64,000 nucleotides of DNA from Candidatus Polarisedimenticolaceae bacterium (GTDB lineage: Bacteria; Acidobacteriota; Polarisedimenticolia; Polarisedimenticolales; DASRJG01): the NCBI GenBank assembly GCA_036275915.1, contig DASUCV010000002.1, positions 124,001 through 188,000 on the forward strand, in the 5' to 3' direction. This document shows, piece by piece, positions 29,728 to 35,379 of the stretch. Every line of letters begins with the position of its first letter. Position 1 is the stretch's first letter. The notes under the pieces are model-generated. The model was not told where the DNA came from, did not search any database, and worked only from the letters and a program-made list of their open reading frames with translations. A program made the position numbers and the translations under genes.

Positions 29728-29775
29728 GGGGACAGCTTCCGAAACTCTGTGCTTCGAGTTTCGGAAGCTGTCCCC
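29728..29775. repeat. Perfect 20-bp inverted repeat of the GGGGACAG family
   Basis: The arms at 29728-29747 and 29756-29775 are perfect 20-bp complements around an 8-base loop (TGTGCTTC). They begin GGGGACAGCTTCC and end GGAAGCTGTCCCC, so this is a longer relative of the GGGGACAGTCCCC palindromes. A further half copy (ACTGTCCCCG) follows near 29784-29793. It lies between two convergent genes and could terminate both. Confidence 0.85.
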
Positions 29776-29781
29776 TCTTAA

Positions 29782-30999
29782 TTACTGTCCCCGTGTCGCC
29801 GCGCGGTAGATGAAGAAGCAACCGATCGTGAGCGCCCATGCGGCGAAGAACGCTGCGCCGGGAACGTGGACGCTCGATCCCGGCGCCGTGAACCGTCCGA
29901 AGAGCTGCGTCATGAGCGGCGGCCCGAGGATCGAGCTGACCGAGAAGAGGCTAGCGACGGCGCCCTGGAGCTCGCCCTGCGCGTCGGGCGGCACGCGGTG
30001 CGACATGAGGGCGTTCGTCGTCGGCATGACGATGGCACCGAAGAACCACGTCGGCAGGATCGCGAACATCATCCACCCGCTCGTGGCGAGCCCGTAGGCG
30101 GCGTAGCCGAGACCGCCCACGACGATCCCGGTGAGCGCCGCGCCGCGCTCGCCGAGCACCGGGACGACGAGCCGCGGGACCAGCGCCTGCGCCGACGCCA
30201 TGACGAGCCCCGCGAGGGCGAGCGAGGCGCCGATCGTTCCCTCGGCCCAGCCGAACCGGTACTTCGTGTAGAAGCTCCACGTCGACGGCATGACCTGATT
30301 CGCGAGCATCCAGAGGAAGAGCGCGACGAGCAGGCCCCAGACGGCCGGGTGCTTGCGGAGCTGCCGCATCGTTCCGAGCGCATTGGCCCGTTTCCAGTCG
30401 AACCGGCGCCGCCTCTCCGCCGGGAGCGACTCGGGGAGAACGAAGAGACCGTAGAGGAAGTTGATCGAGCTGAGCGCCGCGGCGGCGAAGAACGGCGCGC
30501 GTGGCCCGAGTCCGCCGAGGAGCCCGCCGAGCGCCGGCCCGGTGATGAATCCCACCCCGAACATCGCGCTGACGATCCCGAAGTTCTGCGCCCGCTTCTC
30601 CGGAGCGCTGATGTCGGCGACATAGGCGTACGCCGGGGTGAACGAGGCCCCCGCCATCCCGGCGATCGACCGGCCGAGGAAGAGCCACGGCAGCGTCGGC
30701 GCGAAACCCATGACCACGTAATCGACCCCGAGCGCGCCGATCGCCGCCAGGAGGACCGGGCGTCTCCCGAACCGGTCCGACAGCCCGCCGAGGATCGGAG
30801 CGCAGAGGAACTGCATCGACGCATAGACGAACGTCAGCCAGCCTGCGTCGAGGACCGCCACGCTCGCCGGCTTGCCCGTGAGCGTCTCGAGGAGCCGCGG
30901 CATGACCGGGACGATCAGCCCGAAGCCGATCGTGTCCAGGAGCAGCGTGATCGCGATGAAGGCGAGGGCGTGGCGCTGGCTGCGGGGGGGCGAGGTCAT
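29782..30999 (-). CDS. TetA-like MFS drug efflux transporter
   Basis: 405 aa, 12 membrane helices. IAITLLLDTIGFGLIVPVMPRLL, LGGLSDRFGRRPVLL (MFS motif A), GRSIAGMAGASFTPAYAYVADI and FGVGFITGPALGGLLGGL are close to the TCR/Tet family of proton antiporters. The substrate cannot be read from sequence; related chromosomal proteins export varied drugs. The ATG at 30999 has no obvious Shine-Dalgarno sequence. About 65 bp upstream lies a minus-strand terminator preceded by a putative leader peptide, suggesting control by attenuation. Confidence 0.87.
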   Translation of the reverse strand: MTSPPRSQRHALAFIAITLLLDTIGFGLIVPVMPRLLETLTGKPASVAVLDAGWLTFVYASMQFLCAPILGGLSDRFGRRPVLLAAIGALGVDYVVMGFAPTLPWLFLGRSIAGMAGASFTPAYAYVADISAPEKRAQNFGIVSAMFGVGFITGPALGGLLGGLGPRAPFFAAAALSSINFLYGLFVLPESLPAERRRRFDWKRANALGTMRQLRKHPAVWGLLVALFLWMLANQVMPSTWSFYTKYRFGWAEGTIGASLALAGLVMASAQALVPRLVVPVLGERGAALTGIVVGGLGYAAYGLATSGWMMFAILPTWFFGAIVMPTTNALMSHRVPPDAQGELQGAVASLFSVSSILGPPLMTQLFGRFTAPGSSVHVPGAAFFAAWALTIGCFFIYRAATRGQ

Positions 31000-31064: not shown

Positions 31065-31099
31065 AAATAAAAAGGGCCCCAGCCTTGCGACTGGGGCCC
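31065..31099 (-). terminator. Rho-independent terminator upstream of the MFS gene
   Basis: On the minus strand the arms GGGCCCCAG-type (31091-31099) and its complement (31074-31082) form a 9-bp G+C-only stem with an 8-base loop. It is followed directly by TTTTTATTT (31073-31065). This is a textbook intrinsic terminator, and it points towards the MFS gene in the same orientation. Confidence 0.85.
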
Positions 31100-31238
31100 C
31101 AGGAGCTGCCGGTGTCGATGACGTTGGGTTACCCCGCGTATTACGGGTCATCCCAGACGCAAACGGCGCCTTGAGCACCCTACGAGGACGCCACCTCCAC
31201 CGAACGGAAACTAAGGCTGTTCAATGGATCACCTCCTT
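31100..31238 (-). ncRNA. Candidate structured leader RNA of the MFS transporter
   Basis: This minus-strand stretch contains a 13-base perfect Shine-Dalgarno (AAGGAGGTGATCC, 31226-31238), a short frame, and a stem GATGAC/GTCATC (31147-31152 with 31117-31122) enclosing a CCCG/CGGG hairpin. It ends with the terminator at 31065-31099. AGGAG could also pair with CTCCT at 31101-31105, which would hide the ribosome-binding site. No known RNA family recognised. The gap 31000-31352 otherwise holds nothing else I can name. Confidence 0.4.
31180..31224 (-). CDS. Putative 14-residue leader peptide
   Basis: A TTG at 31224 is placed 7 bases after AAGGAGG and opens a 14-codon frame, MNSLSFRSVEVASS, ending with TAG at 31180. 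The Shine-Dalgarno is the strongest in the window (13 bases complementary to the 16S 3' end), far better than that of the transporter gene itself. Very short frames are easily fortuitous; the call rests on the ribosome-binding site, its spacing and the downstream terminator. Confidence 0.35.
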   Translation of the reverse strand: MNSLSFRSVEVASS

Positions 31239-31352
31239 CGTCGGGCGACTCGATGCGTGAGGGCCCCAACCCTCCGGCCCCCGAGCCCGCCCAAGGCCCG
31301 CGGACCGTCGCCCGGCGCCTTCGCCGTGCGGAATTAGTGTACGCTGCGGCGG

Positions 31353-32228
31353 ATGAAGTCGTACCACGAAATTATCGGAGATGGCGGCTCCAACGTTTTG
31401 GGCCAAGTACTCGAGCAGCGGGACCGGATCGCGCGCGCCCTCTCGGGGGTGCGCCACCGGGTCGCGGTCGGGTCGGGTAAGGGCGGCGTCGGCAAGAGCA
31501 CGGTGACGCGCGTCCTGGCTTCGGCGCTCGCGATGAAGGGGCGCGCGGTCGCGATCCTCGACGCCGACTTCAACGGGCCGACGCAGGCGCGCATGACGGG
31601 TCTCTCCGGCGCCGTGCCGGTGCCGGGTCGTGAAGGCCTCGCCCTCCCCCGCTCGAAGGACGGCGTCGGCGTCTTCTCCATCGGCGGCTTCCTCCCCGAA
31701 TCGAAGCCGCTCGAGTTCGACGCGGTCTCCACCGGCGAGGCGCACACCTGGCGGGCCACGCGCGAGTTTGCCGCCCTGGGCGAGGTGCTCTCGGCGGTCG
31801 CGTGGGGCGACCTCGACGTCCTCCTCTTCGACCTGCCGCCGGGAACCGAGCGCACGATGCAGTTCGCCGACGCGCTCGGGGCCGAGACGAGCTTCGTCCT
31901 CGTCACCATCCCGTCCGATGTCGCGCGCGGGGTCGTCGCCCGCTCGGTGAGCGCGCTGGCCAAGGCGTCGAACCCGGTGCTCGGCTACGTCGAGAACATG
32001 AGCGGCTACTTCTGCGCCGACTGCAACGAGGTCAAGCCGCTATTCCCGGAATCGAAGGACGCGGTGGCGCTCGACCTCCCCTGCCTGGGGCGCGTCCCGT
32101 TCGACCCGGCGCTCGCCTTCGCGTGCGACCGTGGCGTCTCCTTCGCCGACCTTCCCGAATCGGCCGCGACGCGGGCCCTCATGGCCGTCGCCGGCCGCCT
32201 GCTCGAGTCCCTGGAGACCGGCCGATGA
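31353..32228 (+). CDS. Mrp/NBP35-type P-loop ATPase
   Basis: 291 aa. Deviant Walker A VAVGSGKGGVGKST (37-50), Switch I DADFNGPTQ, Walker B-like VLLFDLPPGTERTMQ and YVENMSGYFCADCNE with a CxxC (about 220-223) identify the Mrp group, which carries or transfers Fe-S clusters. It overlaps the next gene by 4 bp and heads a three-gene operon with a zinc-ribbon/PCP_red protein and a radical SAM protein. This suggests a dedicated cluster carrier for that enzyme, not the housekeeping Mrp, although this is an inference. Confidence 0.88.
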   Translation: MKSYHEIIGDGGSNVLGQVLEQRDRIARALSGVRHRVAVGSGKGGVGKSTVTRVLASALAMKGRAVAILDADFNGPTQARMTGLSGAVPVPGREGLALPRSKDGVGVFSIGGFLPESKPLEFDAVSTGEAHTWRATREFAALGEVLSAVAWGDLDVLLFDLPPGTERTMQFADALGAETSFVLVTIPSDVARGVVARSVSALAKASNPVLGYVENMSGYFCADCNEVKPLFPESKDAVALDLPCLGRVPFDPALAFACDRGVSFADLPESAATRALMAVAGRLLESLETGR

Positions 32229-32659
32229 AATTCCTCTGCGTCCCCTGCGATCAGCCGATGAAGATGATGGCGGTCACGCCGCCTGACCGCGGCTCGGTCG
32301 CCGTCACGTACGGCTGCCCTGAGTGCGGCTACGAGATGGCGATGCTCACGAACCCGTTCGAGACGCAGCTCGTAACGTCGCTCGGCGTGAAGATCGGGCC
32401 GAACGAGGGAAAGGACGCCGCAACCGCGACGAGCGGCTCGAAGTGCCCGTTCGCCGGGATGATGGCCGGCGCCTCGGAGGAGGCGGAAGAGACGAAGGGT
32501 CCCAAGTGGACCGCCGAGGCCGAGGCACGGATGGAATCGGTCCCGAGCTTCGTCCGCTCGATGGCGAAGACCGGCATCGAGAAGTTCGCGGAGGAGAGCG
32601 GCTACACCGTCATCGACGAGAGGGTGCTCGACGAAGCCCGGTCGCGCTTCGGTATGTGA
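32225..32659 (+). CDS. Zinc-ribbon protein with C-terminal PCP_red domain
   Basis: 144 aa, ATGA overlap with the ATPase gene. Cys5/Cys8 and Cys31/Cys34 (LCVPC, YGCPECGYE) form a zinc ribbon. The C-terminal 53 residues KWTAEAEARMESVPSFVRSMAKTGIEKFAEESGYTVI fit PCP_red (W-x3-A-x3-M-x2-IP-x-FVR ... IE-xxA). The same domain recurs in the following radical SAM protein and in the stress protein at 10889-12856. Confidence 0.8.
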   Translation: MKFLCVPCDQPMKMMAVTPPDRGSVAVTYGCPECGYEMAMLTNPFETQLVTSLGVKIGPNEGKDAATATSGSKCPFAGMMAGASEEAEETKGPKWTAEAEARMESVPSFVRSMAKTGIEKFAEESGYTVIDERVLDEARSRFGM

Positions 32660-32660
32660 G

Positions 32661-33977
32661 ATGGATCCGTCCCCGTTCGAGCGCCCGTACGTCGTCTCCT
32701 GGAATCTGACCTACCGCTGCAATCTCGCCTGCGAGCACTGCTACCTCGACGCCGGCGGCAAGCCGCTCGTCCACGACGAGGCATTCTCGGACCGAAGCGA
32801 GCTGACGACCGCGCAGTGCTTCAAGGTGGTGGGCGACATCGCGGCGTTCGCGCCCGAGGCCGTGACGATCCTGACCGGCGGCGAGCCGCTCCTCCGGCGG
32901 GACATCCTCGAGATCGTCCGCCACGCGAACGCGAAGGGCCTCTGGGTCGTCGTGGGCACGAACGGCGTGAAGATCACGCCGACCCTTGCCGCGCTCCTGG
33001 TCAAGGAAGGCGTGCGCGGGATGTCGCTCTCGCTCGACGCGCTCGATCCGGCAAGTCACGACGCCTTTCGGCGCGTGAAGGGTGCGTGGCAGAACACCGT
33101 CGACGGCGCGAAGATCCTCGGGGCGGCCGGGCTGCCGTTCATCGTGCAGACGACGATCGGCGCGCACAACGTGAACGAGCTCGAGGCAATCGCCGCCTTC
33201 GCGCATGACGAGCTGGCGGCAAAGGTGTGGAACCTCTACTTCCTCGTCCCCACGGGCCGCGGCGCGTTCGTCTCCGACATCGCGCCCGACGCCTACGACC
33301 GGATCCTCGAGGGGCTGAACCGCATCCAGAAGCATTACGCCGGACGGATGCTCGTCAACGCCAAGTGCGCCCCGCACTACGTGAAGACCTTGATCGAGCA
33401 GGATCCGGACTCGCCGTTCCTGAAGACGTACACAGGCGGAGCCGGCGGCTGCCCCGCCGGCACGCACTACCTCGGGATCCGTCCGAACGGCGACGTCACC
33501 CCCTGCCCCTACCTCCCTGTCTTCGGCGGCAACCTCAAAGAAGAAACTCTCGCGAGCGTGTGGGCGGCCTCGGAGCCGTTCGTCGCGATCCGGCGGCGCA
33601 CGAGCCTCGGCGGGCGCTGCGGCGCCTGCGAGCTGAACGCGATGTGCGGCGGCTGCCGCGCTCGCGCCTACGGCGCGACCGGCGACATCATGGCCGAAGA
33701 TCCCTTGTGCACTCATACGCCGGGCAAGTTCGCCGGCTCCCCGCTCATCTCGATCAAGCCCGTGGAATACGGAAAGTCCTCCATCACCGAGATCGCGTGG
33801 GACGACGACGCGCGCGAGCGCATGAAGCGTATCCCCGCGTTCGTTCGCGGCATGGTCGTGAAAGCGGTCGAGGACTCGTGCCGGAAGAGCGGCGTGTCTC
33901 GCGTCACGCTCGCGGAGCTCGAGGCGATTCGGTCGAAGGTGCCGGCGCGATATTCGATCTTCGGGAAGCGGGGCTAG
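32661..33977 (+). CDS. Radical SAM/SPASM protein with C-terminal PCP_red domain
   Basis: 438 aa. The radical SAM cluster motif is CNLACEHC (Cys20, Cys24, Cys27), followed by GGEPLLRRDILEIV. The SPASM-type C-terminal part (about 315-350) reads CGACELNAMCGGCRARAYGATGD...CTH, very like NirJ/AhbC/AhbD enzymes that modify haem or haem precursors. The last 60 residues (IAWDDDARERMKRIPAFVRGMVVKAVEDSCRKSG) are PCP_red. The gene begins 1 bp after the preceding stop. A tetrapyrrole or peptide substrate is possible. The NirJ resemblance plus a domain from protochlorophyllide reductase favours tetrapyrrole, but this is not proven. Confidence 0.85.
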   Translation: MDPSPFERPYVVSWNLTYRCNLACEHCYLDAGGKPLVHDEAFSDRSELTTAQCFKVVGDIAAFAPEAVTILTGGEPLLRRDILEIVRHANAKGLWVVVGTNGVKITPTLAALLVKEGVRGMSLSLDALDPASHDAFRRVKGAWQNTVDGAKILGAAGLPFIVQTTIGAHNVNELEAIAAFAHDELAAKVWNLYFLVPTGRGAFVSDIAPDAYDRILEGLNRIQKHYAGRMLVNAKCAPHYVKTLIEQDPDSPFLKTYTGGAGGCPAGTHYLGIRPNGDVTPCPYLPVFGGNLKEETLASVWAASEPFVAIRRRTSLGGRCGACELNAMCGGCRARAYGATGDIMAEDPLCTHTPGKFAGSPLISIKPVEYGKSSITEIAWDDDARERMKRIPAFVRGMVVKAVEDSCRKSGVSRVTLAELEAIRSKVPARYSIFGKRG

Positions 33978-33978
33978 G

Positions 33979-35379
33979 TCAGTTGCAGCCCGTGAAAACC
34001 TGCGGCCGGCAGCTCGTCGCGCTCGGTGGACGCTGGTTGCCGTCGCTCGCCGTGCCGTAGGAACCCTCGGCACCGTCGGAGTTCAGCGGTACGACCAGAT
34101 AGTAACGGCCGTCGGACGCCGGTGTCAGGGACATCGAGGTCGCCCCTCCTGTGGTGCAGCGTCGCGGCACGTGACTCGCGAAGCTGCCGAGCAGACCCTC
34201 GTAGATCGCGTAGTCCGAGTCCGTGGGCCGACACGAGTGCCCCCACGACAGCTCGAGATCGCCGGGAGTGCTCGCCTTGCCGATCATGAGAGGCATCCCC
34301 GGGACGTCGCCGCCGTCGGGCACGCCGCCCGCGGCGGACGGTGAGGAGAGATGCGCCACCCACCCCTCGGTCAGCCCGTTGTGCGTGCCCGTGCCGACCA
34401 GCGTTCGCCCGTCACCGCTGACTCCGTTGGCAGCGGTCAAGACCCAACCCGTCAAGTTGATTCCGATCGAGGGGAGGTACGTGTTGAGGTCCACCATGCC
34501 CAGGGCGGACGTCGAGAGCATCGCGTGGTCGGGGGACATGAGGACACCCACGACGATCTGGCCGTCGCCGCTCACGCCGTAGGCGCGCGAAGCCATTCCT
34601 GGCAACGTTCCGAGGTTGACCATGCCGCCGACGCTCGTCCAGCGGAACGCGCGGATTTGTGCGAACCCGCTGGTGCCGCCGTAGCCCACCACGGTCGCGC
34701 CGTCGTCGCTCACGCCGGACGCATGCGAGGTGGTGCCTCCCGGCATCGTGCCGAGGTCGGCCAAGCCGCCCGCGAGCGACCAGCGGAACGCATGGTCATC
34801 GGAGGACCCGGTGCTCTCGCCGACGACGATCGAGCCGTCCGAGTTGCAGTCGCGGGCGATCGAATAGCCCACGCCCGTCAGCGTGCCGAGACTGTGCATG
34901 CCGCCGGCGCTCGTCCACCGGAACGCGTCGTTGACCGGATCGCTGAAGCCGGCGACGACGAGGCCATCCCCACTGACGGCTTCCCCGTACGAGCTCAGAG
35001 CCTGCCCGTCTCCGCCGCCATCCAAGGGAAGGCCGAGATCGACCATGCCGCCCGAGATCGTCCAGCGGAAGGCGCGGGTGCCGGCGGTTCCCGTCACCAC
35101 GGTGCCGTCATCGCTCACATCGGCGGCGCTCGAGCCCGTTTGTCCAGGCAGTGTCCCCAGATCGACCATGCCTTGTGAGCTCGTCCAGCGGAAGGCGCGG
35201 TTGCCGCTCGCGCTGCCCACGACGACCGATCCGTCGCGGCTGACTCGCGACGCCGAGGATTGCGTTCCTCCTGGAAGAAATCCCATCCCGGAGAGGCTCT
35301 GGGCATGGACCACGGGCTCGCCGAGGCGCACGAGGATGAGCAACGGCGTCACGACAAAGGCGCGTTGGGTCGCGTTCAA
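33979..35379 (-). CDS. Secreted HAF-repeat protein with C-terminal FN3-like module
   Basis: 466 aa from the TTG at 35379, which gives a clean signal peptide (MNATQRAFVVTPLLILVRLG...VHAQ). An ATG at 35514 would add 45 polar residues. About seven HAF-type repeats (GGMVDLGTLPG...SxAxxVSxDGxxVVGxxxxxxAFRW) form a probable beta-propeller. The last 95 residues (LELSWGHSCRPTDSDYAIYEG ... YYLVVPLNSDGAEGSYGTASDGNQRPPS ... C) match the tail of the GloVer protein at 17601-19112. The gene converges with the radical SAM gene at 1 bp distance. Confidence 0.8.
   Translation of the reverse strand: MNATQRAFVVTPLLILVRLGEPVVHAQSLSGMGFLPGGTQSSASRVSRDGSVVVGSASGNRAFRWTSSQGMVDLGTLPGQTGSSAADVSDDGTVVTGTAGTRAFRWTISGGMVDLGLPLDGGGDGQALSSYGEAVSGDGLVVAGFSDPVNDAFRWTSAGGMHSLGTLTGVGYSIARDCNSDGSIVVGESTGSSDDHAFRWSLAGGLADLGTMPGGTTSHASGVSDDGATVVGYGGTSGFAQIRAFRWTSVGGMVNLGTLPGMASRAYGVSGDGQIVVGVLMSPDHAMLSTSALGMVDLNTYLPSIGINLTGWVLTAANGVSGDGRTLVGTGTHNGLTEGWVAHLSSPSAAGGVPDGGDVPGMPLMIGKASTPGDLELSWGHSCRPTDSDYAIYEGLLGSFASHVPRRCTTGGATSMSLTPASDGRYYLVVPLNSDGAEGSYGTASDGNQRPPSATSCRPQVFTGCN

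Follow-up and report, generated by a model that had tools for sequence, protein, structure and literature searches.

A 64,000-nt stretch of DNA (the window) carries on its minus strand, between positions 31238 and 31066, an element that reads as a complement of the 16S rRNA tail, a TTG-initiated frame and a terminator, in that order. We favor, by a modest degree of belief, the view that this element is a single-copy, stand-alone RNA gene (~250 nt) of Acidobacteriota that works as a ribosome-operated switch, either acting in trans or holding 30S subunits. The autonomy and structure of the RNA are well supported by comparison of its relatives; ribosome loading and a conformational switch are presumed, from the same comparisons, to take place in cells, and the output of the RNA (trans action or 30S holding) is likewise presumptive. 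The window copy and its neighbor comprise the following parts.

31336..31341, minus: candidate -10 hexamer TACACT of the RNA gene, called from sequence and weak in the window copy
31288..31292, minus: outer 5' helix, upstream strand GGGCG, pairing with CGCCC at 31243..31247 (covariation)
31258..31275, minus: upstream hairpin GGAGG-GTTGGGG-CCCTC-A (covariation)
31243..31247, minus: outer 5' helix, downstream strand CGCCC, pairing with 31288-31292 (covariation)
31225..31238, minus: extended Shine-Dalgarno (SD) AAGGAGGTGATCCA, 14 nt, exact complement of the universal 16S 3' tail
31180..31224, minus: mini-ORF TTG...TAG, MNSLSFRSVEVASS, 14 codons, its open frame kept in homologs
31196..31199, minus: TGGA within the ORF, short start-codon helix, pairing with TCCA at 31225-31228 (covariation)
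31188..31195, minus: long-range helix, 5' strand GGTGGCGT, codons of E-V-A-S (covariation)
31182..31187, minus: inner helix, 5' strand CCTCGT, last codons (covariation)
31132..31137, minus: inner helix, 3' strand GCGGGG (covariation)
31117..31124, minus: long-range helix, 3' strand ACGTCATC (covariation)
31066..31100, minus: intrinsic terminator, 12-bp stem at 31100-31073, then the T tract TTTTTATTT
29782..30999, minus: TetA-like MFS transporter, a neighbor outside the element (scoring 322 bits for NCBIfam Tet(A)/(B)/(C), cut-off 475)

A preliminary description of this region had listed several of these landmarks. The 14-codon minus-strand frame is indeed found at 31224-31180, starting in the window copy with TTG instead of ATG, and the perfect intrinsic terminator ends ~70 nt ahead of the transporter ATG at 30999, where, in keeping with that description, the transporter has no SD. 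The SD of the element had been given as 13 bases; it is present, but its length is 14 nt. The structured stretch was correctly recognized as well, since the 181-nt RNA folds better than its shuffles (z = -3.9) and its stems covary among relatives.

We set several of these parts against chance. The 14-mer has one exact match in the 4.5-Mb genome and its reversed control none, but with one mismatch allowed the counts are 1 and 2, so that the 14-base match alone is not decisive. Similarly, two terminator-like sites were found in 4.5 kb versus 2.0 expected, and the terminator count alone is therefore not significant. It is conservation in relatives that places the element above chance.

Occurrence of the RNA in the sampled phylum

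Exact searches with the 14-mer returned matches in 39 of 149 related genomes. The matching loci that were read were mostly 16S ends, with a few unrelated sites and three relatives of the element from the same order (G001, G002 and G004), in which the same RNA, with upstream hairpin, frame and terminator, lies next to other genes. A fifth copy (G007) was found through the motif GGTGGAGGTGGCGT. Within the class, the first covariance model (R1), built from five sequences, matched 8 of 41 genomes; across the phylum it matched 41 of 396, always with one RNA per genome, although one of these matches (G348) was later rejected on reading. This phylum we take to be Acidobacteriota, because the Acid31F site is present in the 16S genes of three members. 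The second model (R2), built from 26 sequences, matched 43 of the 396 genomes, three of which were rejected, leaving the same 40; G016, held out of this model, scored 55 bits. Near-duplicates of L172 (L174 and L175) were excluded from the alignments, and the hold-out L167 also from R2. On reading, the weak model matches in G348, G068, G080 and G103 were protein-coding look-alikes.

A permissive model run over 38 genomes without a match yielded weak scores only, 17 of them at E up to 1. Ten weak matches were read, and four were clear relatives with an extended SD (G019, G022, G024 and G028), whose frames end TREVAAT or TREVPV-T/P. The search pattern for divergent members, an extended SD and then GAGGTG, was found in 43 of 396 genomes versus 8 for its reversed control. 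These 43 comprise 25 known carriers, 15 new members and three genomes (G348, G129 and G080) whose matches, like a second place in G062, were judged to be chance. The new members belong to families f8 and f12 (ten genomes), f18 (two) and f47 (three); the surrounding sequence was read for 14 of them, G038 being included on its pattern match. By eye, divergent members retain the design of extended SD, frame and stop codon in a helix, and their frames end EVPVT, EVSEA or EVADA. At the f8 and f12 loci (L259-L268), the stop codon lies by eye within a long helix formed by CUUAGGCGGA and UCCGCCUGAG. Frames at these loci are longer, at 16-20 codons; the 5' domain is seemingly missing, and the SD is close to a -10-like AGTATATT.

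Altogether, accepted members were found in 55 of 396 genomes from 18 families, 40 by covariance model and 15 more divergent ones by pattern and reading; the remaining 341 sampled genomes have no accepted member in searches that are insensitive to divergent ones. Viral contigs, plasmids and phages searched for the element gave no match.

Outside the phylum, the pattern matched two of 50 genomes reached via other loci, both Rhodobacterales. At these loci (L289, a Planktomarina MAG, 929-1542, minus; L290, Roseivivax halotolerans, 1501-2112, plus), AAGGAGGTGATCCAGTG is followed by an 18-codon frame (VSRKVLERGVVTGFGGAL, VSREALERGVGTIRRTRP), a GC-rich terminator and then arfB, whose product, a ribosome-rescue hydrolase, scored 177 and 179 bits (cut-off 100). 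Their mini-ORF and terminator differ from those of the acidobacterial element, and the arrangement looks like a separate, possibly genuine, leader-peptide attenuator of the ribosome-rescue gene.

Covarying helices of the RNA

The 26-sequence alignment contains 28 pairs in five helices, with 93.4% of cells paired. Double changes were scored at 15 of the 28 pairs and in 46 cells, versus shuffle means of 6.2 and 12.9, and none of 500 shuffles reached these values; slid control structures were about half paired and showed far lower covariation. Covariation in relatives, the check put forward in the preliminary description, thus speaks for conserved stems, and the frame proved to be protected too. 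Compensatory changes were evident in the outer 5' helix GGGCG/CGCCC (3/5 pairs changing on both sides, 97.7% of cells paired, 26 sequences), the upstream hairpin (4/5 pairs, 26 sequences), the long-range helix GGUGGCGU/ACGCCACC (3/8 pairs, 98.1% of cells paired) and the inner helix (3/6 pairs, 83.2%). The start-codon helix TGGA/TCCA has 2/4 pairs changing on both sides and 90.4% of its cells paired.

Three other pairings were discarded. In our first model (A2), CGCCC paired with the SD, which covariation in the 26 sequences replaced by pairing with the upstream GGGCG. The earlier suggestion that AGGAG pairs with CTCCT at 31101-31105 fails in the relatives read, where this pairing is not kept. 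A CCUCC-like intramolecular anti-SD downstream of the stop codon catches the eye but reached a mean z of only -1.0 against mononucleotide shuffles.

One strand of the conserved long-range helix is the 3' half of the frame plus the stop codon, and the final T of the inner-helix strand CCTCGT is the first base of that codon. Since the E-V-A-S codons and the stop sit in the 5' strands of the long-range and inner helices, translation to the stop must open both. Two alternative helices are seen at the stop codon. A local hairpin there, incompatible with the inner helix, scored 163.5 versus 150.2 (sd 5.3), with 3/500 shuffles as high; these shuffles leave relatedness uncontrolled, and the hairpin is therefore only suggestive of a real alternative.

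A protected short reading frame

In the 27 frames tabulated, the start codon lies 4-10 nt (mostly 7) after GGAGG, and 13-15 codons are closed by UAG (18) or UAA (9), never by UGA. Start codons vary among homologs (UUG, GUG or AUG), with start and stop retained, and indels within the frame come in multiples of three. Across 24 ungapped sequences (192 codons; L173, L176 and L184 were left out of this test for their in-frame indels), the eight codons ahead of E-V-A contain no stop. The other two frames have 18 and 14, and column permutations of the frame produced 5.9 stops on average, with none of 200 as low as zero. From this conservation of the frame we infer that the mini-ORF is translated.

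Such a frame might instead belong to a dedicated micropeptide mRNA, in which the 13-20 residue product is what acts and RNA structure only tunes its synthesis. The protected frame, start and stop, the E-V-A ending in 26 of the 27 frames tabulated and a D-K-H-G common to the frames of several families would all suit this reading. However, the E-V-A codons coincide with a strand of the long-range helix, which explains their conservation; outside E-V-A, amino-acid conservation is weak and the N-terminal residues vary widely; and the divergent members described above have endings of their own. Selection at the amino-acid level was not clearly detectable either, the synonymous excess being no clearer in the true frame than in +1. 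We hence regard an active micropeptide as unlikely, and the last result suggests that the act of translation may matter more than the peptide. Read as the arrest motif of a putative ribosome-arrest peptide, the conserved E-V-A ending would show the same overlap with the RNA helix.

Complementarity to the 16S rRNA tail

The SD stretch forms 13-17 contiguous pairs with the 16S tail (GU allowed) in 28 of 29 copies, a complementarity that reaches within about one base of the start codon. In three RNA-carrying genomes of the phylum (G047, G122 and G147) this tail is GGATCACCTCCTTTCTAA. Substituted cells in the stretch keep 16S pairing in 29 of 30 cases, a result that is modest under a transition-only null. 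Further, the TCC of the SD is also paired intramolecularly with GGA of the ORF, which offers an alternative explanation for part of the SD conservation. Given that the changes are of the transition type and that a portion of the stretch lies in a helix, the substitution test provides support, not proof, that the stretch is kept for 16S pairing. The element is no 16S rRNA fragment, since real 16S ends continue GCC[AG]CA and the element does not.

The length of this complementarity, and its extension almost to the start codon, are what would be anticipated if the extended SD mainly sequestered 30S subunits and the short ORF only kept turnover going. Yet such a trap would demand very high abundance of the RNA and would leave both the covarying long-range helix and the protected frame unexplained, and we consider it quite improbable.

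Apart from the match in the element itself, the assembly from which the window derives (G000) contains no 16S 3' end, and no tmRNA in it exceeds the cut-off. The 16S gene of this genome, which should contain the 14-mer, thus seems to be missing, and rRNA and tmRNA regions are probably absent from the assembly.

Genomic context, promoter and terminator

Neighbors were compared at 29 loci, after removal of 12 near-identical ones. No adjacent gene family is shared within 5 kb of these loci; ORF clusters connect the flanks of three families at most, and none of them adjoins the element. Downstream, the closest predicted gene shares the strand of the element in 14 of 26 cases. A promoter-like site that matches at 9 or more of 12 positions and includes an exact TTGACA occurs ~83-135 nt upstream of the core in 16 of 27 copies. 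Terminator-like hairpins were found after the core in 20 of 27 homologs, versus 2.8% of shuffles. Most copies therefore have what is looked for in a dual-function small RNA, namely their own promoter and terminator together with a protected ORF. Of these two signals, only the terminator is clear in the window copy, in which a promoter scan found no clear -35 upstream of the candidate -10.

These comparisons bear directly on the attenuator proposed in the preliminary description, that is, a cis-acting leader peptide on which drug-stalled ribosomes would relieve termination ahead of the TetA-like transporter. Much of its logic stands: the mini-ORF is of the leader type and presumably translated, translation would disrupt conserved stems, and a terminator precedes an efflux gene devoid of an SD. 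Control of the transporter does not, because linkage is absent: at the other loci examined the same RNA occurs without a transporter, and no downstream gene conserved with the leader was found in the loci compared. Moreover, neither the 26-sequence consensus nor reading of the relatives disclosed a conserved antiterminator, the terminator hairpin being self-contained. We reject this reading as very improbable. The transporter next door is probably incidental, although the window copy may have been co-opted for it by read-through. A shade less credible still is a structural RNA whose open frame is an untranslated by-product, as structural constraint strongly overlaps the last third of the frame, but the first eight codons, which the consensus leaves mostly unpaired, are stop-free only in the true frame, indels come in 3-nt units, and start and stop codons are interchangeable.

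Two further observations concern the surroundings in the window. A perfect 20-bp hairpin followed by TCTTAATTAC (29728-29775, plus), between a small acetyltransferase-like ORF and the TetA-like 3' end, is likely a terminator common to the convergent genes. On the other side (31353-34000, plus), a divergent gene codes for an Mrp/ApbC-like ATPase and a more distant one for a radical SAM/SPASM protein akin to enzymes of heme biosynthesis (AhbD/NirJ); none of the scores reaches its curated cut-off.

Comparison with known RNAs

Rfam 15 contains no family that reaches its gathering score in the window, and in eight representative loci nothing but tRNA did so; the best sub-threshold match was BjrC68 (22.5 versus 39 bits), on the terminator. 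The element is also distinct from tmRNA (RF00023), as 9 of the 10 genomes tested, among them 7 carriers by R1/R2, have a separate tmRNA above the cut-off. Literature searches found no paper on this RNA.

The attenuator of the trp genes, rnTrpL, is among the RNAs that resemble it. In Sinorhizobium meliloti, the leader peptide peTrpL is reported to act in trans (PMC7298713). Like rnTrpL/peTrpL as portrayed there, the element is a short leader-peptide RNA closed by a terminator (PMC7298713), but it is linked to no gene, its complementarity to 16S is much longer, and it lacks a run of regulatory codons. With leader-peptide attenuators in general it shares the mini-ORF, candidate alternative helices and terminator, but not a conserved downstream gene, and no antiterminator is seen in its consensus; among attenuators predicted in Acidobacteria, almost none has an associated function (PMC2965389). 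Extended SD motifs of Staphylococcus aureus, presented as a general feature of initiation, likewise pair with the antiSD over an extended, start-proximal stretch and go with small ORFs and non-canonical starts (PMC13009471), whereas here a single conserved structured RNA gene of another phylum shows up to 17 contiguous pairs. Finally, Acido-1 (RF01686) is also a candidate non-coding RNA of Acidobacteria (PMC2864571), but the element has no Rfam match at the gathering score, RF01686 included.

Proposed mode of action

We propose a ribosome-operated RNA that acts in trans or holds 30S subunits because the element displays leader-peptide logic without a gene to lead. A ribosome would load through a 13-17 bp duplex with the whole single-stranded 16S 3' tail and read a frame of 13-20 codons, mostly ending E-V-A/P-x-x and then UAG or UAA. 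On arriving at the stop it would open the long-range helix, which would close if translation did not occur. The RNA's own terminator would release it as a free small RNA, which might then act in trans or hold 30S subunits. As a more tentative and rather speculative extension, the RNA may be a phylum-wide reader of ribosome state: it would capture the 30S subunit by the complete 16S tail, its long-range helix would report, by opening or closing, the capacity for initiation, elongation over 13-20 codons and termination, and its free or closed form would regulate in trans.

If this proposal is correct, leader-peptide logic would not be bound to an adjacent gene, and much of the phylum would carry an autonomous, ribosome-driven RNA switch outside every Rfam family. 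The RNA would also offer a system in which to test the full-length SD-antiSD duplex as a promoter or a blocker of initiation, and a handle on translation sensing in abundant, poorly studied soil bacteria.
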